Source: Kytococcus aerolatus (GTDB lineage Bacteria > Actinomycetota > Actinomycetes > Actinomycetales > Dermatophilaceae). From it: 64,000 nucleotides of DNA. The translations under genes were made by a program, and so were the position numbers. The stretch is taken from contig NZ_FYEZ01000001.1 of the NCBI RefSeq assembly GCF_900187395.1, positions 682,001-746,000 of the forward strand, read 5' to 3'. The notes below the pieces were generated by a model, which did no database searches, was not told the origin of the DNA, and was given only the letters and a program-made list of their open reading frames with translations. Below are positions 32,991 to 61,113 of this stretch, one piece after another (within the stretch, counting starts at the first letter, position 1; each line of letters opens with the position of its first letter).

Positions 32991-33362
32991 TCAGGAGTGG
33001 GGCAGGAGCATCGTCACCGTCAGCGTGGTCGGTTCCAGGGCAGTCACGGCGTGGCGCAGCATCGGCGTGAGGTGGAGCATCTCGCCGGGCGCCAGCTCGA
33101 TCGGGCCGTCGGGGAGCGTGAGCTCGACCCGGCCCCGGTGCACCTGGATGATCACCGGGTGTCGGGCCGCGTGGTCGGCCAGCACGTCACCGGCGGCGAA
33201 CTCGAAGACCACGACCTTCCCAGCCTCGGTGGCCAGGACGTTCTTCGCCCCGGGTCGGCCGCCACGGGACTCCGCCTCGCCGAGGAGCGGGACCCGGGTG
33301 GCGGTGCCGGGGTCGTCGTCACTGCCGGCGGCGGTGCCGTCCACGTGGTCGTCGAGCGTCAT
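32991..33362 (-). CDS. Cupin-domain protein
   Basis: Single-domain cupin, 123 residues. Core strands include VVVFEFAAGDVLADHAARHPVIIQVHRG and the second motif IELAPGEMLHLTPMLRHAV. The ATG at 33362 is chosen over an upstream in-frame ATG because AAGGAGG lies seven bases before it. Function unknown. It precedes nothing on its strand and follows the P-type ATPase gene by 61 bp, so it may be read from the same transcript. Confidence 0.72.
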   Translation of the reverse strand: MTLDDHVDGTAAGSDDDPGTATRVPLLGEAESRGGRPGAKNVLATEAGKVVVFEFAAGDVLADHAARHPVIIQVHRGRVELTLPDGPIELAPGEMLHLTPMLRHAVTALEPTTLTVTMLLPHS

Positions 33363-33423
33363 GGGTTCCTCCTTCATCGGGTCGCCGGACGGTCTCCGGC
33401 GTGTTCCGGGGACTGCGGCCCCG

Positions 33424-36348
33424 TCAGGTCAGGGCAGGTTCCAAGCGCGGTGTGGGCTCGGCCGGGGCAGGCTCACCACGCCAGCGGAGCACCACCTTGC
33501 GGAGCTCGTCGAACCAGAGCACGCACGAGGCCAGGGCCAGGCACTTCAGCCACTGGTCGAGGGTGAGCGCCTCGGTGCCGAAGGCCGCCTGCAGGAAGGG
33601 CACGTGCACCACGGCCACCTGCGAGACCAGGCCGAAGGCCAGCGACAGCCACAGCCAGCGGTTGGTGAAGAGGCGGTGGAAGGCCGAGACGGTCTCCGAG
33701 CGCGAGTTCAGCGCGTTGAACAGCTGCGCGAGCACCAGCGTGGTGAAGGCCGCGGTGCGGGCGTTCTCCACCGACTGGTGGCCCTCGACGAGCCCGCCGG
33801 GCAGCTCCATGTCCAGGGCCAGCAGGGTCACCACGGCCATCACCAGGCCGATGGTGAGGATCCCAGTCCACATCCGGGTGTTGATGACCCGCTCGGAGAG
33901 CGGGCGGGGCCGGGCGGCCATGACGTCCTCGGTCTCGGGGTCGATCCCCATCGCGAGCGCCGGCGCCGAGTCGGTGACGAGGTTGATCCAGAGGATCTGC
34001 GTGGCCAGCAGCGGGGCGACGACGGCCTCCCCGTGGCCGGTCAGGCCGAGGTACCCGGCGAGCATCACGCCGAGGAACATCGTGAGGACCTCACCCATGT
34101 TCGAGGAGAGCAGGTAGCGCAGGAACTTGCGGATGTTGGCGAAGATCACCCGCCCCTGCCGCACCGCGGAGACGATCGTGGAGAAGTTGTCGTCCACGAG
34201 GATCATGTCCGCGGCCTGCTTGGAGACCTCGGTCCCGGTGACGCCCATCGCCACCCCGATGTCGGCCTTGCGCAGGGCCGGGGCGTCGTTCACCCCGTCG
34301 CCAGTCATGGAGACGATCTGCCCCTCGGCCTGCAGGGCGGCGATGAGCTGGAGCTTGTGCTCCGGAGCCACCCGGGCGAAGACGGAGACCTCCCGGACCA
34401 CCTCGCGCAGCTGCGCGTCGTCCATCCCGTCGAGCTCCGGACCGGCGACCGCCCGGGCGCCCTGCCCGACGATGCCGAGCTCCTGGGCGATCCGCAGGGC
34501 GGTGGCCGGGTGGTCCCCGGTGATCATCACGACGCGGATGCCGGCCCGATGCGCCTCGGACACGGCCTCGGCGGCCTCGGTGCGGGGCGGGTCGATGATG
34601 CCGACCGTCCCGACGAGGATCAGCCCCTCCTCGAGCGCCAGGCCCGCCTCGCCGTCGAGGGAGCCGTCGCCGGCCAGGGCCGCCTCGTACTCCCCCGGTT
34701 CCAGCGGCCGGTAGGCCACGGCGAGGGTACGCAGGGCCTGGTCGGACATCTCGGCGACGTCGCGCTCCACCTGCTCCCGGTCGGCGGCGGTGAGCTCCAC
34801 GACGCGCTCCCCCTCCCGGGCCCGGGTGCAGTGCTCGAGCAGCACGTCGGGGGCGCCCTTGGCGACGAGGGTCCGCTGGACGCGGCCCTCCGCGTCGGTG
34901 TGGTCGGCGTCCTCGACGACCACCGACATCATCTTGCGGTCCGAGGTGAAGGGCACCTCCCCGATCCGGGTGAACCGCTCCTGCCGCCGCTGGGTCAGGC
35001 CGGCCTTCTGCTCGGCCACGACGAAGGCCGCCTCGGTGGGGTCGCCGATGACCGACCACGAGCCGTCCTCCTCCTGCCGGACCTCGGCGTCCGAGGCCAG
35101 CGTGCCGCCGCTGAGGACGACGATGTCCTCCTCGCGCAGGTCGAGCTCCGGGTCCTGCTCGAGCAGCGGTGCCCCCTCGACGAGCACGTCACCCTCCGGC
35201 GCGTAGCCGACCCCGCTGATCTCGGCCGCGCCGGAGCGGGAGCGGACCCGCACCATCGTCATCTCGTTGCGGGTCAGGGTGCCGGTCTTGTCCGAGCAGA
35301 TCACCGAGGCCGATCCGAGGGTCTCCACCGAGGAGAGGGACTTGATGATGGCGTTGCGCCGGCTCATCGCCTGCACCCCGATCGAGAGGACCAGCGAGAG
35401 GATCGCCGGCAACCCCTCGGGGACGGCGGCCACGGCCAGCGAGACGCCGAGCAGGAGCACGTCGACGGCGTCCTGGGCGGTGCGGATGTCGCTGGTGAGC
35501 GCGACCGCCCCCATGACCACCAGGGCGATGACGATGACCGACAGGCCGAGCACCTTGCCGACGCCGGCGATCTCCCTCTCCAGCGGGGTGGCCTCCTGCT
35601 CGGTCTCGTTGAGCATCCGGGCGATGTGCCCCATCTCGGTGCCCATGCCGGTGTCGGTCACCACGGCCCGCCCCAGTCCCTGCGTGACCGCGGTGCCCTT
35701 GAAGACCATGTTCGTCCGGTCGCCCAGCGGGACGTGCTCGGCGAGCGTGGCCGGGGACTTGGTGACCGGCTGGGACTCCCCGGTCAGCGAGGCCTCGGCC
35801 ACCTGCAGCGAGGAGGCGCGCAGGAGGCGGGCGTCGGCCGGGACCGAGTCGCCCTCGGCGAGGACCAGCAGGTCACCGGGGACCACCTCGGTGGCGGGGA
35901 CGCGCAGCTGCTGGCCGTCACGCACCACCCCGGCGGTCACCTCGGACATCCGCTGCAGGGCGGCCACCGCGTCGGCGGCCCTGCCTTCCTGGACGTAGCC
36001 GATGATCGCGTTGGCGACCACGATGAGCAGGATGACCACGGCGTCGACCGGGAAGCCGTGGGCCCCCTCGAACCACCAGGCCGCCACCGAGATGACGATG
36101 GCGGCCAGGAGCAGGTGGATCAGCGGGTCGGAGAACTGGCGGGCGAGGCGCTTCCAGGCCGGTTCCGGGGGCTCGGCGTCGAGCTCGTTGGGGCCGTGCT
36201 GCTCGAGCCGGGCGGCGGCCTCGGCGACGCTCAGGCCGTGCTCGGGGTCCGTCCCCAGCTCCGCGGCCACCTCCGGCCCGTCGACCAGGGCCCAGTCGCG
36301 CTCCTGATCGGCGACGACCGGGGTGCTGAACGATGCGGCGTGACCCAT
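33424..36348 (-). CDS. P-type (P2) cation-transporting ATPase, Ca2+-ATPase-like
   Basis: 974 residues with full P2 architecture: N-terminal cation-ATPase domain (GLSVAEAAARLEQHGPNELD), actuator loop TGESQPV, ion-site helix with VAAVPEGLPAILSLVLS, phosphorylation motif CSDKTGTLTRNEM, hinge MTGDGVNDAPALRKADIGVAMG, and a C-terminal four-helix region. PEGLPA is the SERCA/PMCA-type motif, so Ca2+ (or Mn2+) export is likely. Na+ or H+ transport cannot be excluded. ATG at 36348. Confidence 0.87.
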   Translation of the reverse strand: MGHAASFSTPVVADQERDWALVDGPEVAAELGTDPEHGLSVAEAAARLEQHGPNELDAEPPEPAWKRLARQFSDPLIHLLLAAIVISVAAWWFEGAHGFPVDAVVILLIVVANAIIGYVQEGRAADAVAALQRMSEVTAGVVRDGQQLRVPATEVVPGDLLVLAEGDSVPADARLLRASSLQVAEASLTGESQPVTKSPATLAEHVPLGDRTNMVFKGTAVTQGLGRAVVTDTGMGTEMGHIARMLNETEQEATPLEREIAGVGKVLGLSVIVIALVVMGAVALTSDIRTAQDAVDVLLLGVSLAVAAVPEGLPAILSLVLSIGVQAMSRRNAIIKSLSSVETLGSASVICSDKTGTLTRNEMTMVRVRSRSGAAEISGVGYAPEGDVLVEGAPLLEQDPELDLREEDIVVLSGGTLASDAEVRQEEDGSWSVIGDPTEAAFVVAEQKAGLTQRRQERFTRIGEVPFTSDRKMMSVVVEDADHTDAEGRVQRTLVAKGAPDVLLEHCTRAREGERVVELTAADREQVERDVAEMSDQALRTLAVAYRPLEPGEYEAALAGDGSLDGEAGLALEEGLILVGTVGIIDPPRTEAAEAVSEAHRAGIRVVMITGDHPATALRIAQELGIVGQGARAVAGPELDGMDDAQLREVVREVSVFARVAPEHKLQLIAALQAEGQIVSMTGDGVNDAPALRKADIGVAMGVTGTEVSKQAADMILVDDNFSTIVSAVRQGRVIFANIRKFLRYLLSSNMGEVLTMFLGVMLAGYLGLTGHGEAVVAPLLATQILWINLVTDSAPALAMGIDPETEDVMAARPRPLSERVINTRMWTGILTIGLVMAVVTLLALDMELPGGLVEGHQSVENARTAAFTTLVLAQLFNALNSRSETVSAFHRLFTNRWLWLSLAFGLVSQVAVVHVPFLQAAFGTEALTLDQWLKCLALASCVLWFDELRKVVLRWRGEPAPAEPTPRLEPALT

Positions 36349-36396
36349 GTCTCCACGCTAGCCGCCTCCCCCGACAGGCCGCCCGAGGCCCCAGGG

Positions 36397-36959
36397 TCAG
36401 TCCTCGGGGTCCACCTCCTGGCCGCCCATGAACTCCTCGACCCACTCGGGGAAGCCGTCCTCCTCGGGGAGCGCCCACTCGGCCGGTACGTCGATGCCCT
36501 GAGCGGTGACCCAGGCCCGGAAGTCCGCGACCGCCTCGGGCTCCTCCGGCGGGCACTGGAGGGCGAGGAGGTCGACCTCGTCGAAGCCCACCGCGAGCAT
36601 GGCGAGCAGGTCGCGCGGGTTCTCGGCGACCGTGCCGGTCTCCCCGTCGGAGCCGAGGACCACGGCGTGCACCTTCACCGCCGTCGCGCCACAGTGCCAG
36701 CCATGAGCCGTCGCCCGAGGCCTCCGCGATGGGGAGGAGCCCGTCGGGCGTCCGCCCGTCGAACCAGTCGGCGAGGTCGAGACCGGCCGCGAAGACCGGC
36801 CGAGCTGCTCGTCGTCGGGATACGCGGTGAGGAAGGGGCCCTCTTCGCCCTTCACGACGTGGCCCTGCTCCTCCATCCAGAAGAAGGCCTGCTCGAGCTC
36901 TGCGGGAAGGGGGCCCACGAGGGGTGGTCGGCGGTCAGCTAGTCCCCGAGGCGTGACAT
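36397..36959 (-). pseudogene. Broken SMI1/KNR4 (SUKH)-like gene
   Basis: Piecing frames together gives about 187 residues: start MSRLGD, then ELEQAFFWMEEQGHVVKGEE, FAAGLDLADWFDGRTPDGLL, IAEASGDGSWLALWRDG, then VHAVVLGSDGETG and a C-terminal acidic helix. The pattern resembles SUKH immunity-type proteins. Disruptions are an early TAG at codon 7, a shift before ELEQ, and opposite shifts near 36800 and 36685. A -10-like TAGGTT seven bases before the ATG suggests a leaderless start. Decayed gene or local sequence errors. Confidence 0.6.
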
Positions 36960-37076
36960 GCGGCCAACCTAACCAGTCGGCCCACGCCGGGAAAAGGGTG
37001 AGTCCGCGACACCAGCCCAGACGGCCGCCGAGCCGCGCCTCCGCCGCCCGGGGAGCCCGTGCAGGCTTCGGGGTGA

Positions 37077-37303
37077 GGTCGGACTCGCAGAGTCCCACGA
37101 GCTCCTCCGATGCCACGACCTCGAGCAGCCAGAAGGCCTCCGAGTCCACCGAGAGCCGGTACTGGCCCGCCACCGAGGGCGAGGAACTCTGCGGTGTGAT
37201 GACCAGCGTCGAGGGCAGGAGGGGCGACACCGAGGTGGTCTTCCAGGGCGAGGAGGCAGAGATCACCTTCACTCAGCCCAAGAACGCCACCCCGAAGGGC
37301 TGA
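37077..37303 (+). pseudogene. Truncated copy of the META-like lipoprotein gene
   Basis: Encodes DSQSPTSSSDATTSSSQKAS through CGVMTSVEGRRGD joined directly to [19 protein letters not shown] and stop. It lacks the signal peptide and lipobox present in copy 2 (39470-40033) and has lost 252 bp in frame between two near-identical CGAC(A/G)CCGAGG stretches. No start codon or ribosome site. Confidence 0.75.
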
Positions 37304-37322
37304 CGCCCGCAACACCCCGCTG

Positions 37323-37354
37323 GGGCTGGTCAGTCACCGCAGACTGACCAGCCC
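37323..37354 (+). terminator. Hairpin after the truncated lipoprotein copy
   Basis: Perfect 12-bp stem (37323-37334 with 37343-37354) and 8-nt loop; the same hairpin follows the intact copy at 40053-40084. Confidence 0.6.
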
Positions 37355-37371
37355 TGGCCCGGCTGGCCCCG

Positions 37372-37563
37372 CTGAGCGAGCGCGAGCGGGAGGTGGTCGG
37401 CGCCGTGGCCCGGGGACTGAGCAACGCCGAGATCGCCGCCGAGCTCTTCCTCTCGGAGGCGACCGTCAAGGCGCACCTGGCACACATCGTCACGAAGCTC
37501 GACGCCAACCGCATCCAGGTGGCCATCCTGGGCCACGACGCGGGGCTCGACGCCGCCGGCTGA
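37372..37563 (+). pseudogene. LuxR-type HTH fragment, copy 1
   Basis: 63 codons of a GerE/LuxR DNA-binding domain: [20 protein letters not shown], then [20 protein letters not shown] and [11 protein letters not shown]. In complete response regulators this is the last 60 residues; no receiver domain precedes it. There is no ATG or GTG start. It is nearly identical to 40102-40293. Confidence 0.7.
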
Positions 37564-37566
37564 GCC

Positions 37567-37907
37567 TCAGGAACCGGAACGCGGGGCGTACATGATGACG
37601 GCCATGCCGAGCAGGCAGACCCCCGCACCGAGGAGGTCCCAGCGGTCGGGGCGGTAGCCGTCGGCCACCACCCCCCCCAGAGGATCGAGCCGGCGACGAA
37701 GACGCCCCCGTAGGCGGCCAGCACCCGACCGAACTCCCCCTCGGGCTGCCAGCTGGCGACCACCCCGTAGAGCCCCAGCGCGATCACCCCGGCACCGACC
37801 CAGACCAGCCCACGATGCTCGCGCAGCCCCTGCCACACCAGCCAGGCACCCCCGATCTCGCAGAGGGCCGCGAGCACGAAGAGTCCCAGCGAGCGCAGCG
37901 TGTCCAC
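37567..37907 (-). pseudogene. YnfA/UPF0060-family membrane protein gene with a frameshift
   Basis: From GTG 37907 the sequence reads [15 protein letters not shown]-like [20 protein letters not shown], then [13 protein letters not shown], and, after a +2 shift, [20 protein letters not shown] ending APRSGS. The length (341 bp) is not a multiple of three. The shift falls in a run of eight G (plus-strand C, 37671-37678); six would restore the usual YnfA reading frame. Four-helix protein of unknown transport role, about 113 residues when repaired. Confidence 0.75.
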
Positions 37908-38031
37908 GAGCGGACCGTAGCCGGGGGTCAGGGCAGGGGCACCTCCCGGCCCCGACGGATGGAAATCCGCCCCAACCCGCCCGCCCAGAACCGCAGCCAT
38001 CGTCCTCTCCCACCGTTCACACGCATTCCCA

Positions 38032-38047
38032 TGTGACTCCCGTCACA
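38032..38047 (+). promoter_or_regulatory. CRP/GlxR-type binding site upstream of the protease gene
   Basis: TGTGA-CTCCCG-TCACA matches the TGTGA-N6-TCACA consensus of CRP/GlxR regulators in both half sites, 87 bp before the protease ATG. The rest of 37908-38133 shows no gene. Confidence 0.55.
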
Positions 38048-38133
38048 TAATTGCTGGGTGCCCACCCCGCTAGGCTTGGCCTGACCGGCAGATTCGCCGT
38101 GAAGCGCCTTCGGGCCGACAGTGAGGCAAGGAC

Positions 38134-39467
38134 ATGTCCACTTTCTCGTTCTCCAAGAAACTACTTCTCTGGGGCATCCCTGCCCTTGCGGTGACGGCCG
38201 CCCCGGCCGCATCCACCCTCCCCGCAGACGGATCCGTGAGCGAGCACACCAGCACGCCGGTGGCAGTCTCCAGCTCGACCGATGAGGCCGACCCCCTCGA
38301 GGCGCAGCACCGCCTCGCGGAGTTCAAGACCTGGATCATCGAACACCCCGAGTTCGCCGATGCGGGATACATGGAGCAGATCAACTGGGCGGACGAGTCG
38401 CGGGTCACGGCCCTCTGGGACGCCGACCTCTGGGACGGCTCTGAGGCTGCGCGGAGAAGGCTGACTCAGGAGGCGGCCAGCCGGTCCATTCGCTTGGACT
38501 TCCAGCAGCGCGCCCACGGTCTGAACGACCTCCAGCAGATCTCCGGTCAGATCCTCGACCAGACGGAGCCGCTCGCGCTCATCGGGTTCGAGCTGGAGGC
38601 CGTCAGCACCCTGCGTGTGGACGATGGCCCGATCGAACTGATCGGAACCTTCGTCGAGCCGGCGCCCACCGCCCAGCGAGGCGACCTCGCCTCCATCGCG
38701 GGGGCACGCGGAGCGCAGTCCCCGGAGGACGTCGAGCGCATCGTGCGCGAGAGTGTGGGAGTCGACGTCGAGGTCGTCGAGGGAGAGGCGCTGCCGGCCA
38801 GGTCCCGCGCAGCGGACACCACGCCTTTCTTCGCTGGGGGCAGATGAAGGCCGATGGTGGCGGAATCTGCTCCAGCGGCTTCTCTCTGCGGTCGGGAGGC
38901 AGGACCTACACGACGACCGCCCGGCACTGCCGCGGAACCTTCCGGGCCTACAGCCGACCCTCCAGCGTTTATGGTTCCAACTACCGCTCGAGCACAGACG
39001 GAGCTGCAACCATGCTGACCGGACGAGGCGGTAGCCGAATGTTTGATGGCGCCTGGAGCAACTCCCCTGGATACAACAAGCCTGTGGCCGGCTACTACGA
39101 CGTCAGCCTGAATGACAACGTCTGCACCAGCGGTGCAAACTCCGGTGTCCACTGTTCGGTGAAGATCACGGACATGAGCCGGATGTGGGACGACAAGCGC
39201 GGCGCCGTGTCCACCATCGTCGGAGTACGCCAGGGGGCTGGAATTGCCGCCATTCAGGGTGACTCCGGGGGGCCTGTCGCGGTGCCCTACTCCAGCGGCA
39301 AGGTGGGAGCAGTAGGGATGATCCAGGCGGTCTCCTCCCCCATGATGACCGGCACAAGCTGTGGTTCCGCCCGCGTCCGAGGCACGAACAAGTGCAGCAA
39401 GACCGTCCTTTTCACCTCTATGCGGACCATCGCCCGGAGCTTCAACGCGCCCCTGGTGACGGGGTGA
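38134..39467 (+). pseudogene. Secreted trypsin-like (S1, streptogrisin-type) serine protease precursor with a frameshift
   Basis: The first part (38134-38847, 237 codons) has a signal peptide (KKLLLWGIPALAVTAAPAA) and an alpha-lytic/streptogrisin-type propeptide ending AADTTPFFAGG. The second (38844-39467) holds the mature enzyme: CSSGFSLRSGGRTYTTTARH with catalytic His, an Asp candidate in GYYDVSLND, and Ser in QGDSGGPVAV, plus paired cysteines. A run of five G (38836-38840 region) where six would join the frames separates them. As written, the protease half has no secretion signal. Repaired, it would be an extracellular protease of about 444 residues. Confidence 0.7.
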
Positions 39468-39469
39468 TC

Positions 39470-40033
39470 ATGGTGAACCGACCTGCCCTGCGCGGCCTGG
39501 CGATCTCAGTGCTCGTCAGCGGTGGGCTGCTGGTCGGCTGCAACAACAGTGAGGGGCCGGACTCCCAGAGTCCCACCAGCCCCTCCGATGCCACGTCCTC
39601 GAGCAGCCAGAAGGCCTCCGAATCTACCGAGACCCGCTGCTGGCCCGCCACCGAGGGCGAGGACCTCTGCGGTGTGATGACCAGCGTCGAGGGCAGGAGG
39701 GGCGACGCCGAGGCGGTCGACCTCAAGGGTGCCCTCACGGTCGAGGTCACCCCGGACCCCGCCGGCGACGGGTACTCCCTGCTCGCCACCGCCGATGGGT
39801 GCCAGCTGTGGACCACGCCCCTGACCGGCACTGCCCCCAGGTGGACCCCCCACCCTGACCGCCGAACGGACTCGGCCATGGGGTGCGACTCCCCGACCGA
39901 CCAGCCCGACTGGGTGATGGCGATGCTGGACAAGCCCTTCACCGTGCAGGTCGCCGACACCGAGGTGGTCTTCCAGGGCGAGGAGGCAGAGATCACCTTC
40001 ACTCAGCCCAAGAACGCCACCCCGAAGGGCTGA
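39470..40033 (+). CDS. META-like domain lipoprotein
   Basis: 187 residues. The ATG at 39470 lies two bases after the protease stop. Signal peptide with lipobox LLVGC (Cys24), a Ser/Thr-rich linker, then a beta-rich domain (YSLLATADGCQLWTTPL, DSAMGCDSPTDQPDW and TEVVFQGEEAEITF) that resembles META/HslJ domains, which in some proteins act as protease inhibitors. Adjacency to a secreted protease suggests a partner or inhibitor. A truncated duplicate lies at 37077-37303. Confidence 0.6.
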   Translation: MVNRPALRGLAISVLVSGGLLVGCNNSEGPDSQSPTSPSDATSSSSQKASESTETRCWPATEGEDLCGVMTSVEGRRGDAEAVDLKGALTVEVTPDPAGDGYSLLATADGCQLWTTPLTGTAPRWTPHPDRRTDSAMGCDSPTDQPDWVMAMLDKPFTVQVADTEVVFQGEEAEITFTQPKNATPKG

Positions 40034-40052
40034 CGCCCGCAACACCCCGCTG

Positions 40053-40084
40053 GGGCTGGTCAGTCACCGCAGACTGACCAGCCC
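40053..40084 (+). terminator. Terminator after the META-like lipoprotein
   Basis: Perfect 12-bp stem and 8-nt loop, 19 bp after the stop codon; identical to the hairpin at 37323-37354. Confidence 0.65.
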
Positions 40085-40101
40085 TGGCCCGGCTGGCTCC
40101 G

Positions 40102-40293
40102 TTGAGCGAGCGGGAGCGGGAGGTGGTCGGCGCCGTGGCCCGGGGACTGAGCAACGCCGAGATCGCCGCCGAGCTCTTCCTCCCCGAGGCGACCGTCAAG
40201 GCGCACCTGGCACACATCGTCACGAAGCTCGACGCCAACCGCACCCAGGTGGCCATCGTGGGCCACGACGCGGGGCTCGACACCGGAGGCTGA
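40102..40293 (+). pseudogene. LuxR-type HTH fragment, copy 2
   Basis: 63 residues if the TTG at 40102 were used: [20 protein letters not shown] followed by the HTH recognition region and KLDANRTQVAIVGHDAGLD. Only the DNA-binding domain of a LuxR-family regulator; no receiver domain and no ribosome site. It could be a small DNA-binding protein, but identical truncation in both copies favours a remnant already present before duplication. Confidence 0.6.
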
Positions 40294-40296
40294 GCC

Positions 40297-40662
40297 TCAG
40301 CCCTCTTGGCCGAGGACCTCCTCGATCGTGAGCCGGAGAGCGCCTGCGTGCTGGGACACCACCTGCCACACGATCTCGTAGTCCACGGCGTCGTACTCGT
40401 GGGCGATGCGATTCCTCATACCGATGGCACGCCTCCATGTGGGGTCCGCACGTCGCTCCTCGAGGAACTCGGCGGGGAGCCGCACGGCCTCGCCCAGCTT
40501 CAGCACCAAGGAGTCCGCGGCCAGGTGGGGCACGCCCAGGTCAGGGTCGGAGTCGAACCACTCACGGCCTCTGTCGGCGAGGGCCTCGGCCCGGAGACAG
40601 AGCCGGTGGACGTCACGCAGGCGTGCCACCGTCCCCGGCTCGAGCCCAGCGTGTGCGTTCAC
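40297..40662 (-). CDS. hepT: HEPN-domain toxin, HepT-like (DUF86)
   Basis: 121-residue predicted RNase of the HEPN family. The catalytic and modification motif R-x4-H-x-Y is intact: Arg83, His88 and Tyr90 in MRNRIAHEY. Its helical bundle core is SLVLKLGEAVRLP. In characterised type VII systems the partner MntA adds AMP to the Tyr of this motif. The ATG at 40662 overlaps the antitoxin stop by 4 bp. The stop codon lies inside the direct repeat at the cassette edge. Confidence 0.82.
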   Translation of the reverse strand: MNAHAGLEPGTVARLRDVHRLCLRAEALADRGREWFDSDPDLGVPHLAADSLVLKLGEAVRLPAEFLEERRADPTWRRAIGMRNRIAHEYDAVDYEIVWQVVSQHAGALRLTIEEVLGQEG

Positions 40663-41024
40663 AGGGCCACCGCGGTCCGCAGGATCTCGTGCCCGGGACG
40701 GAGCGCCCGGGAGGCGACCAACTCCACCGGCACCTCCAGCAGGGCCTCGGCCTCCTCAGCGGCGTCGATGAGATCCAGCAGGTCGATCTGAGGGGTCACG
40801 TCCACGAGGACGTCGAGATCACTCCCGGGAACGTCCTCCCGCCGAGCCACGGACCCGAAGACGCGCGGGTTGGTCATGCCGTGGCGGGCCAGCAGGGCGA
40901 TGAGCTCGGACCGATGGCGGGCCAAGGCCCGCCCCGGCGTCGTGTGCAGCATCGTCTCCATCGCCTCAGAGTACCGAGAAGGCCGGTCAGGACCCCAGGG
41001 CCGACACCACCACGTGAGCCTCAG
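40301..41024. mobile_element. HEPN-MNT toxin-antitoxin cassette bounded by 10-bp direct repeats
   Basis: TGAGCCTCAG occurs at 40291-40300 and again at 41015-41024. Between them lie the two cassette genes. In duplication copy 1 the same flanks are joined through a single TGAGCCTCAG (37561-37570), so the uninterrupted site is preserved in the same window. No transposase and no clear terminal inverted repeats. Confidence 0.65.
40659..40961 (-). CDS. mntA: MNT-domain antitoxin, MntA-like nucleotidyltransferase
   Basis: 100 residues, minimal nucleotidyltransferase. The GS-x10-DxD signature is complete: Gly36-Ser37 and Asp48/Asp50 in VFGSVARREDVPGSDLDVL. A third acidic position lies in VPVELVASR. 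It probably neutralises the HEPN protein by AMPylating its R-x4-H-x-Y tyrosine. The antitoxin gene comes first, coupled to the toxin. The ATG at 40961 is used; a second ATG three codons later is possible. Confidence 0.82.
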   Translation of the reverse strand: METMLHTTPGRALARHRSELIALLARHGMTNPRVFGSVARREDVPGSDLDVLVDVTPQIDLLDLIDAAEEAEALLEVPVELVASRALRPGHEILRTAVAL

Positions 41025-41084
41025 CCGCCGGAGCGCGGGGCGTACATGACCACGGCCATGCCGAGCAGGCAGACCGCTGCGCCG
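41021..41084 (-). pseudogene. 3' remnant of a YnfA-like gene, duplication copy 2
   Basis: About 20 codons ending in VMYAPR, collinear with the end of the gene at 37567-37907. Upstream sequence diverges after about 41084. Confidence 0.6.
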
Positions 41085-41184
41085 ACCGGATGGCCCGGCA
41101 ACCGACCGGAATCACGGCCTTCGTCCACTCCCACCGTTCACTCACGGTGGGTTCGGGGCAGAAGGGTGGGTCTGGCGGAGGAGC

Positions 41185-41871
41185 TCAGGCCCCGCGCGCG
41201 ACGAGCGGCATCTCGCGCACCGTGCCGGCCAGCAGGTCGACCACCGCGATGCGGCCCACCAGGGGCCGCCCCTGCCCGGTGAGCAGCTTGACCGCCTCCG
41301 CGGCCTGCCAGGCACCGAGCATCGCCGGGGTGGCCCCGAGGATCTGCGGCGGGGCGGGCAGCTCCTCGCGCATGGCGCTGGCGTCCTCCCACTGCGGCCC
41401 GCCGGGGACGAACACGCTGAGCACGCCCTGCCAGCCGTCGATCGCCGACCAGATCCAGGGCACGCCGGCCTCCCGGCAGCTCGTCGAGATGGCCGTGCGG
41501 GAGGCGACCTTGTCGGTGCAGTCGAGCACCACGTCGAAGCCCTGCACGAGCTCGGCGTCCTGTGCGGTGAGGCGCCGGACCTCCCCCTCGATCCGCGACT
41601 CGGGCGAGAGCTCCCGCATCCGCTCGGTGACCCGCTCCACCTTGAGCGCGCCGAGGTCGGCGTGGGTGAAGAGGGTCTGTCGGTTGAGATTGCTCAGCTC
41701 CACGACGTCGTCGTCGAGGAGCACGATCCGACCGACCCCGCTGGCCACGAGCGCGGGGATCGCCCCGGCCCCCAGCCCGCCGCAGCCCACGACGAGCGCC
41801 GAGGAGGCCCGCAGCACCCGGTTGCCCTCCTCGAGCAGCACCCGCTGCCGGGCCCACTGGTCGTCCTTCAT
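41185..41871 (-). CDS. ThiF/MoeB-family adenylyltransferase, short form without zinc motifs
   Basis: E1-like enzyme, 228 residues. The ATP loop is VVGCGGLGAGAI (near residue 26), then DDDVVELSNLNRQ and DCTDKVASR. Its role by context is adenylation of the MoaD C-terminal glycine for molybdopterin synthesis. The two CxxC zinc pairs of MoeB and any rhodanese domain are missing, giving a compact form. The ATG at 41871 is four bases after the moaE stop. MoeB is the likely role; ThiF activity cannot be excluded. Confidence 0.75.
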   Translation of the reverse strand: MKDDQWARQRVLLEEGNRVLRASSALVVGCGGLGAGAIPALVASGVGRIVLLDDDVVELSNLNRQTLFTHADLGALKVERVTERMRELSPESRIEGEVRRLTAQDAELVQGFDVVLDCTDKVASRTAISTSCREAGVPWIWSAIDGWQGVLSVFVPGGPQWEDASAMREELPAPPQILGATPAMLGAWQAAEAVKLLTGQGRPLVGRIAVVDLLAGTVREMPLVARGA

Positions 41872-41875
41872 CGCG

Positions 41876-42292
41876 TCAGCACTCACCGAGACCCACCCAC
41901 TCGTCACTCCCGTCGGCGAAGACCTGCTTCTTCCACACCGGCACCCGCTCCTTGATGCGCTCCACCAGCTCCGCGCAGGCCGGGAAGGCCCCCGCCCGGT
42001 GGGCCGAGGCGCAGCCGGCCACCAGGGCCACCTCGCCGATCGCCAGATCGCCCACCCGATGCTGGGCCACGGCCACCACGTCGAACTCCGCCTCGATCTC
42101 GGTGACCACCTCGGCCAGCACGCGCTCGGCCTCCGGGTGGGCCGAGTAGCCCAGCGAGACCACGGACCGGCCGTGGTCGTGGTCACGGACGACGCCCTCG
42201 AAGAGCACGACGGCGCCGTGGGTCCGGTCGGCCAGGTCCGCCCGGACGGCCGCCGGCTCCAGCGGCGTGGACTGGACGGTGGAGGCAGGCAT
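41876..42292 (-). CDS. moaE: Molybdopterin synthase catalytic subunit
   Basis: 138 residues. Converts cyclic pyranopterin monophosphate to molybdopterin with MoaD thiocarboxylate. Conserved segments are GAVVLFEGVVRDHDHGRSV, VAVAQHRVGDLAIGE, ASAHRAGAF and the active-site lysine region IKERVPVWKKQ. Divergent from moeA with only 34 bp between the start codons, so the promoters overlap. Confidence 0.92.
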   Translation of the reverse strand: MPASTVQSTPLEPAAVRADLADRTHGAVVLFEGVVRDHDHGRSVVSLGYSAHPEAERVLAEVVTEIEAEFDVVAVAQHRVGDLAIGEVALVAGCASAHRAGAFPACAELVERIKERVPVWKKQVFADGSDEWVGLGEC

Positions 42293-42326
42293 GCGGCCCA
42301 GCGTACGGCGCAGGCAGGATGGACCC

Positions 42327-43562
42327 ATGGTCCAGCCCCACCCCGCCCCACAGACCGCCTGGCAGCGCACCCCGGCCGAGCACACCGCGGCCGTCCGCGC
42401 CCTCGCGCCGGAACCCCGCCCCGAGCGGATCCCCCTGCCGGAGGCCACAGGGCGCATCCTGGCCCGGGACGTCGCCTCCCCGCGGGAGCTGCCGCTCTGG
42501 GACTGCTCGGCGATGGACGGGTTCGCCGCCCGCCGCGCCGACCTGGCCGAGGGCGTCGTGCTGCCGGTGCGCGGCGACGTGCCCGCCGGTGTCGCCCCCG
42601 GACCGTTGGAGCCGGGGACGGCGATGCGGATCATGACCGGCTCCCCCGTGCCGCAGGGGGCCGACACCGTGGTGCCGGTGGAGCTCACGGACATCCCCCG
42701 CGGACCGGTCCCGCTGCCCCAGGAGGTCCGCGTGGACGAGCTGCCGGCCGGGGACAACACCCGCGCCGCCGGCAGCGACGTGACCACCGGGCAGGTCGTG
42801 GCGGAGGCCGGGACGGTCCTCGACGCCCTCACCCTGGGCGCCGTCGCCGCGGTGGGGGTGGCCGAGGTCGAGGCCACCCGCCCGGTGCGGGTCCGGGCCG
42901 TGGCCACGGGGGACGAGCTGGCCCCGCTGGGCACCGAGCCGGGCCCGGGGCAGCTCCCGGACTGCAACTCCTGGCTGGTGCACGGCCTGGCCACGGCGCT
43001 CGGCCATCCCACCGAGCGGGTCCTGCTCGACCACGACGACCCGGAGGAGCTCGGCCGCCGCCTGCCGGAGCTCACCGCGGACACCGACCTGCTCGTCTTC
43101 ACCGGCGGGGTGAGCGCCGGCGCCTTCGAGGTGGTCCGCCAGTGCCTGGAGCCCCGCGGCATCGAGTTCGGGCAGGTGTCCATGCAGCCGGGCAAGCCGC
43201 AGGGCGTCGGGCAGCTCGACGGCGTGACCGTGCTCTGCCTGCCGGGCAACCCGGTCTCGGCGGTCGTGTCCTTCCTGGCCTTCGCCCGCCCGTGGCTGGA
43301 TGCCGCCAGCGGTCGGGAGGCCCCCGGGCCGGTGACGGCTGTGCTCGGCGACGGGTGGGCCAAGAAGCCGGGCCGCACCCAGTACATGCCCGTCACCCTC
43401 AGCCCCGAGGAGGGCCGGCTGGTGGCCCGGCGGCGCAGCGCCGAGGGCTCCCTCTCGCACCTGGCCTCCCGCCTGGCGGGGGTGGACGGATTCGCGATCG
43501 TCCCGGCTGCGGCCGAGGGCGTGCAGGAGGGGGACCTCGTCGAGGTCATGATGGTGCCATGA
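42327..43562 (+). CDS. moeA: Molybdopterin molybdotransferase
   Basis: Inserts molybdate into adenylylated molybdopterin. 411 residues. Family landmarks are LPLWDCSAMDGFA, RIMTGSPVPQGADTVV, VRAVATGDEL, FTGGVSAG, QPGKPQGVG and LPGNPVSAVVSF. The ATG at 42327 follows CAGGATGG. Overlaps moaC by 4 bp. Confidence 0.93.
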   Translation: MVQPHPAPQTAWQRTPAEHTAAVRALAPEPRPERIPLPEATGRILARDVASPRELPLWDCSAMDGFAARRADLAEGVVLPVRGDVPAGVAPGPLEPGTAMRIMTGSPVPQGADTVVPVELTDIPRGPVPLPQEVRVDELPAGDNTRAAGSDVTTGQVVAEAGTVLDALTLGAVAAVGVAEVEATRPVRVRAVATGDELAPLGTEPGPGQLPDCNSWLVHGLATALGHPTERVLLDHDDPEELGRRLPELTADTDLLVFTGGVSAGAFEVVRQCLEPRGIEFGQVSMQPGKPQGVGQLDGVTVLCLPGNPVSAVVSFLAFARPWLDAASGREAPGPVTAVLGDGWAKKPGRTQYMPVTLSPEEGRLVARRRSAEGSLSHLASRLAGVDGFAIVPAAAEGVQEGDLVEVMMVP

Positions 43563-59598: not shown

Positions 59599-61113
59599 AT
59601 GTCTTCCCGCATCCACCACTCCGGCCTGCGTTCCAAGGTGATGTCCGCCGAGGAGGCAGCCGCCTTCATCCGGCCCGGCACCACGGTGGGCATGAGCGGC
59701 TTCACGGGCTCCGGCTCCCCGACCGCCGTCCCGCTGGCCCTGGCGGAGCGGATCCGGGCCGCGCACGACCGGGGCGAGGAGTTCCGGATCAACCTCCACA
59801 CGGGTGCGTCGACCTCCCCGGAGATGGATGGCGCTCTGGCGGAGGTCGATGGCGTGGCCCTGCGGGCCCCGTTCCAGTCGGACCCGGCGATGCGGGCCAA
59901 GATCAACGCCGGCGAGATCGACTACGTCGACACGCACCTCTCCCACCTGGCGCAGACGGTGTGGAACGGCTTCTACGGCCCGATGCACACCGCGGTCGTC
60001 GAGATCTCCGCGATCCGCGAGGACGGGACCCTCGTCCCGAGCTCCTCAGTGGGCAACAACAAGACCTGGCTCGACCTGGCCGAGCAGGTCATCCTCGAGG
60101 TCAACTCCTGGCAGAGCGCCGACCTCGAGGGCCTGCACGACGTCTACTACGGCACGGCCCTGCCGCCGAGCCGCAAGCCGGTGATGATCACCGCCCCGTC
60201 GGACCGGATCGGCCAGCCCTACTTCGAGGTCGACCCGGCCAAGGTGGTGGCCGTCGTGGAGACCCACGCGCCGGACCGCAACTCCCCCTTCAAGCCGGCC
60301 GACGACGACTCGATCGCCATCGCGCAGCACCTCATCGAGTTCTTCGAGCACGAGGTGGCCCAGGGCCGCTACGACGAGCGCCTGCTGCCCCTGCAGTCGG
60401 GCGTGGGCAACATCGCCAACGCCGTGATGGCCGAGCTCGTGAAGTCCCGCTTCAAGGGACTGACGGCCTACACCGAGGTGGTGCAGGACGGCATGCTGGA
60501 CGCCCTGGACTCCGGCACGCTGGCGACCGCCTCGGCGACCGCCTTCTCCCTCTCGACCGAGGCCGCCGAGCGCTTCAACGACACCGTTGCGGCCTATCGC
60601 GACAAGCTCATCCTGCGCACCCAGGAGATCTCCAACCACCCGGAGGTCGTCCGCCGCCTGGGCATCCTGGCCATGAACGGCATGCTCGAGGCCGACCTGT
60701 ACGGCAACGTGAACTCCACCCACCTGATGGGCACGAAGATGATGAACGGCCTGGGCGGCTCCGGCGACTTCGCCCGCAACGCCTTCACGTCCTTCTTCCT
60801 CACCCCGTCGACCGCGAAGAACGGCGACATCTCCTGCATCGTGCCGATGGTCTCCCACGTGGACCACACCGAGCACGACGTGCACGTGGTGGTCACCGAG
60901 CAGGGCCTGGCCGACCTGCGCGGGCTCTCCCCGCGGCAGCGTGCTCGCCTGATCATCGAGAAGTGCGCCCACCCGGACTACCGCCCGGCGCTGGAGGACT
61001 ACTACGAGCGGGCCCTCAAGGGCTCCGACGGCCTGCACACGCCGCACCTGCTGGGCGAGGCGCTCTCCTGGCACCAGCGCTTCCTCGACACGGGATCGAT
61101 GAAGCAGGGCTGA
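59599..61113 (+). CDS. Acetyl-CoA hydrolase/succinyl-CoA:acetate CoA-transferase
   Basis: 504 residues, class I CoA-transferase of the Cat/AarC type. The catalytic Glu293 lies in AYTEVVQDG, with the oxyanion-type GVGNIANAV loop at 268-276 and the CoA-binding region NGLGGSGDFARNA. It transfers CoA between succinate and acetate, recycling acetate. ATG at 59599 after CAGAGGTCCC. Monocistronic. Confidence 0.9.
   Translation: MSSRIHHSGLRSKVMSAEEAAAFIRPGTTVGMSGFTGSGSPTAVPLALAERIRAAHDRGEEFRINLHTGASTSPEMDGALAEVDGVALRAPFQSDPAMRAKINAGEIDYVDTHLSHLAQTVWNGFYGPMHTAVVEISAIREDGTLVPSSSVGNNKTWLDLAEQVILEVNSWQSADLEGLHDVYYGTALPPSRKPVMITAPSDRIGQPYFEVDPAKVVAVVETHAPDRNSPFKPADDDSIAIAQHLIEFFEHEVAQGRYDERLLPLQSGVGNIANAVMAELVKSRFKGLTAYTEVVQDGMLDALDSGTLATASATAFSLSTEAAERFNDTVAAYRDKLILRTQEISNHPEVVRRLGILAMNGMLEADLYGNVNSTHLMGTKMMNGLGGSGDFARNAFTSFFLTPSTAKNGDISCIVPMVSHVDHTEHDVHVVVTEQGLADLRGLSPRQRARLIIEKCAHPDYRPALEDYYERALKGSDGLHTPHLLGEALSWHQRFLDTGSMKQG

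Follow-up and report, generated by a model that had tools for sequence, protein, structure and literature searches.

The HepT/MntA toxin-antitoxin pair of Kytococcus aerolatus lies at the junction of a luxR-type fragment and ynfA, and the one other Kytococcus genome compared is occupied at the collinear site. We consider it probable that the pair was inserted into this junction a single time, before the two known alleles diverged, and that, having no ends of its own, it represents a shortened HTH-MntA/HepT module. In terms of mechanism, a cut-down member of an actinobacterial HTH-MntA/HepT group, without the N-terminal XRE-HTH and the palindrome, would have entered the convergent luxR-type fragment/ynfA junction once, presumably leaving short direct repeats; the surrounding block is duplicated in K. 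aerolatus, where copy 1 is unoccupied. As an insertion this is an ordinary toxin-antitoxin event common to the sister genome; what is unexpected is the joint absence of the HTH and of the palindrome. The analysis covers a 64-kb stretch of DNA, referred to here as the window, from a genome of 2.40 Mb in 5 contigs (G000), and the sister comparison covers one other genome of the genus, G001 (single contig, 2,785,024 bp), which we infer to be Kytococcus sedentarius 541T.

The window contains TGAGCCTCAG at three positions, always on the + strand (37561, 40291 and 41015). As the first-pass annotation had claimed, the occurrences at 40291 and 41015 bound the HepT/MntA pair and the one at 37561 marks an unoccupied junction within the same window, where, in copy 1 of the duplicated block, a single TGAGCCTCAG connects the same flanks (Table 1). 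Clear homology between the right blocks of copies 1 and 2 resumes at this 10-mer; the alignments of the two copies meet there, so that copy 1 has it once and copy 2 twice. Two convergent frames have their stop codons inside the 10-mer of copy 1 (TGA of the luxR-type fragment at 37561 and TCA of ynfA at 37567), and at the occupied site the left repeat supplies the stop codon of hepT. A GerE Pfam match identifies the luxR-type fragment of copy 2. The duplicate block also includes a longer lipoprotein-like frame (recognised by eye, with no Pfam match) and a second luxR fragment.

Table 1. Features of the hepT/mntA locus and of its unoccupied counterpart (window coordinates)
Feature	Position	Strand	Remarks
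Copy 1 left flank	37225..37570	+	3' end of lipoprotein-like frame (by eye), inverted repeat, luxR-type HTH fragment
Single TGAGCCTCAG at unoccupied junction, copy 1	37561..37570	+	
Copy 1 ynfA (UPF0060)	37567..38013	-	Split over two frames
Copy 2 left flank	39955..40300	+	336/346 identical to copy 1 (37225-37570)
Left direct repeat TGAGCCTCAGCC	40291..40302	+	First 10 bp common to copy 1; contains luxR-fragment stop and hepT stop
hepT, HEPN RNase toxin	40297..40662	-	121 aa, GTG start, R83-x4-H88-x-Y90
mntA, MNT adenylyltransferase antitoxin	40659..40961	-	100 aa, without HTH; TGA overlaps hepT GTG
Region upstream of mntA	40962..41014	-	Without ATATC-N4-GATAT palindrome; no HTH remnant detectable
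Right direct repeat TGAGCCTCAGCC	41015..41026	+	Contains ynfA stop
Copy 2 ynfA remnant	41021..41141	-	3' end and upstream piece, middle missing

The repeats at the occupied ends measure 12 bp in the window (TGAGCCTCAGCC) and 13 bp in G001 (TGAGCCTCAGCCG), compared with 10 bp shared with copy 1. Within 200 bp on either side, TGAGCCTCAGCC is the longest word common to both ends, and it was equalled in 2 of 200 shuffles. Copy 1 reads TGAGCCTCAGGAA, and therefore does not exactly match a duplication produced by insertion into a ynfA end of the occupied type. On its own TGAGCCTCAG is not rare, as it occurs 12 times in the K. aerolatus genome and 5 times in G001, compared with 4 and 9 occurrences, respectively, of the same pattern read backwards; it is its position that matters. 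A longer repeat at the right end was also considered: directly ahead of the right 10-mer, 18 of 30 positions agree with the 3' end of the copy 1 luxR fragment, a score equalled by 0.47% of the 30-mers in the window, and the corresponding 30 nt of G001 match it at only 15 of 30 (equalled by 5.8%). Elsewhere in the duplicate block, two overlapping frames resemble one broken trypsin-like protease (38134-39467, overlapping near 38844; GDSGG by eye), with no Pfam match above cut-off for the pair, and copy 1 ynfA is likewise split over two frames (37269-38013). The split ynfA and the broken trypsin-like frames reflect either real decay or assembly errors.

Both genes were recognised by Pfam and carry complete motifs, in agreement with the earlier identification of an intact HepT/MntA pair. 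HepT matches the HepT-like family with 49.2 bits (cut-off 23.5) and aligns over a complete RX4HXY motif (R83-x4-H88-x-Y90), while MntA matches NTP_transf_2 with 25.2 bits (cut-off 21) and has a complete GSX10DXD motif (G36-S37-x10-D48-x-D50). The NCBIfam equivalog models HepT_toxin and MntA_antitoxin score 38.3 and 25.2 bits, respectively, and because both values lie below the strict cut-off of 60 we do not claim exact equivalence. The genes form a putative two-gene operon on the minus strand, mntA first and hepT second, in which stop and start codons overlap in GTGA. The predicted model of MntA (pLDDT 91.6) resembles minimal nucleotidyltransferases as well as HepT-MntA complexes; it matched 1wot with an E value of 2.7e-6 and the HepT-MntA complex 7bxo with 9.3e-5 in a Foldseek search. 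The HepT model was poor (pLDDT 64.9) and its structure search uninformative, and a PDB sequence search with the HepT alignment returned zero matches; the HEPN assignment is that of Pfam and the motif. In the one allele pair available, that of K. aerolatus and G001, dN/dS is 0.10 for mntA and 0.29 for hepT. Judged from sequence, these low values and the intact motifs point to a functional type VII pair whose built-in DNA-binding domain has been lost.

In Shewanella, MntA places three AMPs on the Tyr of RX4HXY and thereby neutralises the RNase, as described in the available text of PMC7641770. By analogy, Tyr90 would be the AMPylated residue of the Kytococcus HepT, which would cleave RNA until MntA moves AMP onto this residue and silences it. 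The Shewanella oneidensis pair (SO_3166/SO_3165; available text of PMC7641770 and PMC4621449) shares with that of Kytococcus the RX4HXY and GSX10DXD motifs, an antitoxin gene placed first and an MNT antitoxin without an HTH, and the Kytococcus MntA model matches its crystal structures; sequence identity is low, however, since the structural search matched HepT-MntA complexes at 16-21%. MntA (40659-40961) also matches the PADLOC candidate defence models PDC-S09 (PDLC04902, 04904-04906), with E values of 1.6e-24 to 1.4e-10. The likeness to PDC-S09, compared by label only, is confined to MntA, as HepT has zero matches among the PADLOC models.

In the sister genome the collinear site is occupied by the module, again between two 10-mers, and one such locus was found there. 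Window positions 33001-37570 are collinear with G001 at 98.5% identity, and the order there is luxR fragment, TGAGCCTCAG, hepT/mntA, TGAGCCTCAG, an uninterrupted ynfA and a ThiF-family (moeB-like) gene. The insertion is therefore not private to K. aerolatus. The two modules, 88% identical over 714 bp of hepT/mntA DNA, have in common the site, the repeats and the absence of both HTH and palindrome. They differ by about 10-12% nucleotide divergence, and G001 has an uninterrupted ynfA, no duplicated block and no unoccupied copy. It should be noted that with one other genome of the genus compared, an old and single insertion depends on two alleles. These alleles are not clearly independent vertical lineages, since both sit in a high-identity stretch shared between the species. 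Across window positions 31500-59600, identity to G001 is 98.4% (25,683 aligned bases) and reaches 99.0% when 37450-42640 is set aside, and in the 4-31 kb region it is 80.5% (20,351 aligned bases); the change falls near 31.2 kb and the match to G001 ends at 59638. These alignments suggest that the two species recently exchanged about 28 kb. Inside it, the module locus (37450-42640) is only 93.7% identical over 2,856 aligned bases, which makes a third allele or a separate recombination likely.

A search with HepT matched 18 of 78 genomes, K. aerolatus included, and among these 78 an identity of at least 60% was found, besides its own, only in G001, G047 and G045. Scanning the genome collection gave nine loci, seven of them close (63-73% identity; L076-L082, of which L079 is the G047 locus and L081 the G045 locus), from Serinicoccus, Arsenicicoccus, Agilicoccus and Brevibacterium plus Tessaracoccus, Mobilicoccus and Propionibacteriaceae MAGs. 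These seven share with Kytococcus the gene order, the MNT clade and, in the six with an open hepT, a HepT that is 58-72% identical. They differ from it in their surroundings, in having no clear flanking repeats, in the XRE-HTH on MntA (7/7) and in the palindrome (0-1 mismatch in 6/7). Their MntA proteins are 146 aa long with the XRE-HTH at the N terminus in all seven, and the palindrome ATATC-N4-GATAT upstream of mntA has no mismatch in four, one in two and three in one. From the end of the palindrome to the start of mntA there are 7-10 bp across the seven relatives, and 9-10 bp in the six with 0-1 mismatch. In K. aerolatus and G001 no HTH match was obtained for MntA, and the best palindrome upstream of mntA has 6 mismatches. 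The match of the Kytococcus MntA to the HTH-MntA profile begins at profile position 49-54, past the HTH. A remnant of the HTH in the 53 nt upstream of mntA was sought by HMM and rejected, as the score was no better than that of controls (reached by fractions of 0.11 of shuffled and 0.24 of window-sampled DNA for K. aerolatus, and 0.36 and 0.50 for G001).

Across the order, the HTH-MntA profile was matched at an E value of 1e-10 or better in 129 of 396 genomes, K. aerolatus included, which is not a count of HTH-MntA because many of the listed matches span the MNT part alone. The best 30 loci, among them that of K. aerolatus and three already seen, comprise 12 with the palindrome at no more than two mismatches and 18 without, where shuffles expect 0.18; in 3 of the 30 the GSX10DXD motif is not evident as read. 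A palindrome with 0-1 mismatch placed 9-10 bp before the start is found at 12 distinct loci (L076-L080, L082, L119-L123 and L125). In more distant HTH-MntA genes (L131, L132, L135, L136 and L138), inspection by eye shows a different motif ahead of the start, resembling TATCA/TGATA. Of the best 30 loci, 23 entered an unrooted FastTree of 32 MNT domains and 94 columns; left out were L116-L118 (which are L079, L081 and L077), L133 (K. aerolatus itself) and L127, L137 and L141 (motif not seen). In this tree the domains of K. aerolatus and G001 group with eight HTH-bearing proteins at a support of 0.988, and are closest to L076, L077 and L082 at 0.818; the inner supports around Kytococcus are moderate (0.73-0.82). 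As the Kytococcus MNT domain groups within an HTH-bearing clade of the unrooted tree, loss of the HTH is the simplest reading.

Transcription of the pair is probably no longer controlled as in the relatives, and its source may be the co-directional ynfA side. We tentatively propose, with rather less than even confidence, that the module is a headless HTH-MntA/HepT fragment, a captured piece that lost its DNA-binding domain and operator and survived under host transcription. According to the available text of PMC4621449, the MNT antitoxin of Shewanella has no recognised DNA-binding domain and yet binds its own promoter and represses it, so that loss of the HTH need not equal loss of self-repression. 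If true, the antitoxins of the actinobacterial HTH-MntA clade, a group of type VII systems, would combine a modifying enzyme with an operator-binding repressor, and Kytococcus would represent a natural loss of the repressor function. This offers a testable pairing of HTH-MntA with a precisely placed palindrome, at the 12 distinct loci, against a natural pair that has neither. A literature search, made largely without subscription papers, found no HTH-fused MntA with an operator, which is weak evidence of novelty, and no paper on a Kytococcus toxin-antitoxin system.

Either an old paralogue that is unoccupied or a precise loss of the module could explain copy 1, whose flanks point in different directions. 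Among the 21 variable sites of the 346-bp luxR segment, 11 join copy 1 with copy 2, 8 join copy 1 with G001 and 2 join copy 2 with G001; past 37473, where 16 sites vary, copy 1 groups with copy 2 at 11. The 71-bp ynfA flank has 10 variable sites: 7 join copy 2 with G001, and one each joins copy 1 with G001, joins copies 1 and 2, and differs in all. These conflicting sites require recombination or gene conversion. When the ynfA flank was set against 28 ynfA 3' ends of the family and the G001 paralogue, synonymous sites proved too variable to polarise. The alternative to a paralogue that was never occupied is a secondary deletion: the block was duplicated together with the module, which then disappeared from copy 1 when the short repeats slipped or recombined. 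We regard this as quite possible, if somewhat short of an even chance: the sole other genome of the genus compared is occupied, the 11 of 16 luxR-fragment sites past 37473 that join copies 1 and 2 are as in a recent duplication, and the block has deletions and a split ynfA. However, at 7 of the 10 sites that vary in the 71-bp ynfA flank, copy 2 and G001 agree and copy 1 differs, and the GAA beside the 10-mer of copy 1 is CCG in both occupied alleles.

How the repeats arose bears on the mode of the single insertion that we prefer. They could derive, without any target duplication, from a circular or linear DNA fragment joined through a short shared sequence of 12-13 bp, as would be in keeping with repeats at the occupied ends (12-13 bp) that exceed the match to copy 1 and with the termination of hepT and the occupied ynfA on the same nucleotides. 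We consider such joining rather unlikely, as none of the seven relatives has TGAGGCTCA in the 60 bp next to its hepT stop. Ku-dependent end joining was rejected, there being no Ku match in the K. aerolatus genome. Carriage by a phage or plasmid was also rejected, the HepT matches comprising one phage and six plasmid records, all below 60% identity; IMG/VR gave one weak HepT locus.

The first-pass annotation had proposed that the pair moves as a minimal cassette and duplicates 10 bp of its target; this would make it a non-autonomous mobile element served by an enzyme acting in trans. The exact 10-bp repeats and the unoccupied junction speak for this idea, as does the lack of a transposase, which the annotation had correctly noted: Pfam found none among the 16 window frames scanned around the locus. 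Also borne out was its statement that terminal inverted repeats are lacking (shuffles score as well in a fraction of 0.97 for K. aerolatus and 0.68 for G001), but this counts against an element, and so do the failure to find a second copy of the module in either genome (save a weak 40-bp match in G000), the position of both alleles at one site and the shortening of the module relative to its relatives. Movement as a cassette is not supported: G001, the one other genome of the genus compared, has the module in the same place with the same ends, and in the seven other close relatives the ends differ in every case. Most of what the annotation had named as evidence against itself was thus observed, the sister site being occupied and the ends differing in relatives, and its third point, a deletion origin of copy 1, keeps the chance given above. 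We therefore regard a mobile element as very improbable, which removes one candidate for enzyme-free mobile cassettes.

The surroundings of the module differ among the relatives. The TGAGCCTCAG ends and the luxR-fragment/ynfA setting are absent from all seven; TGAGCCTCA is absent from their loci on both strands, and ynfA was not found there. Flanking repeats beyond chance are lacking in six of the seven (106 bp of upstream sequence only for L078), and the flank of L081 has an 11-bp low-complexity repeated word that 9 of 200 shuffles reach. The Pfam-identified neighbours all differ in 6 of 7: a radical SAM protein (L076), an alpha/beta hydrolase (L077), a Pup ligase family protein (L079), a Glu/Gln-type tRNA synthetase and DUF222/HNH (L080), a LuxR-type ATPase regulator and a phosphopantetheinyl transferase (L081), and a luciferase-like monooxygenase (L082); L078 neighbours had no Pfam match. 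The 400-bp flanks of the seven (106 bp upstream for L078) match neither one another nor Kytococcus, with the exception of the luxR-type HTH of L081, which lies upstream of mntA and matches the Kytococcus luxR fragment, located downstream of hepT, with an E value of 4e-6. Mobility of HEPN-MNT modules, with recent insertion or deletion between close genomes of Deinococcus and Thermus, was described in 2009 (available text of PMC2701414). The Deinococcus radiodurans and Thermus thermophilus HB8 cases resemble a Kytococcus insertion in that one genome has the module and a close relative lacks it at the syntenic position, and the available text of that paper makes no mention of flanking repeats. 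From a comparison of the loci, the differing neighbourhoods fit a slow horizontal spread, as described for HEPN-MNT, rather than a cassette with fixed ends.

Two of the relatives depart from the others in hepT itself. In the Agilicoccus HepT (L081:4956-5339), His-Asp-Glu-Asp occupies the position expected for the RX4HXY Tyr; this locus also has the weakest palindrome among the seven. In Arsenicicoccus, hepT (L082:5001-5384) is apparently frameshifted and the HTH-MntA gene is open.
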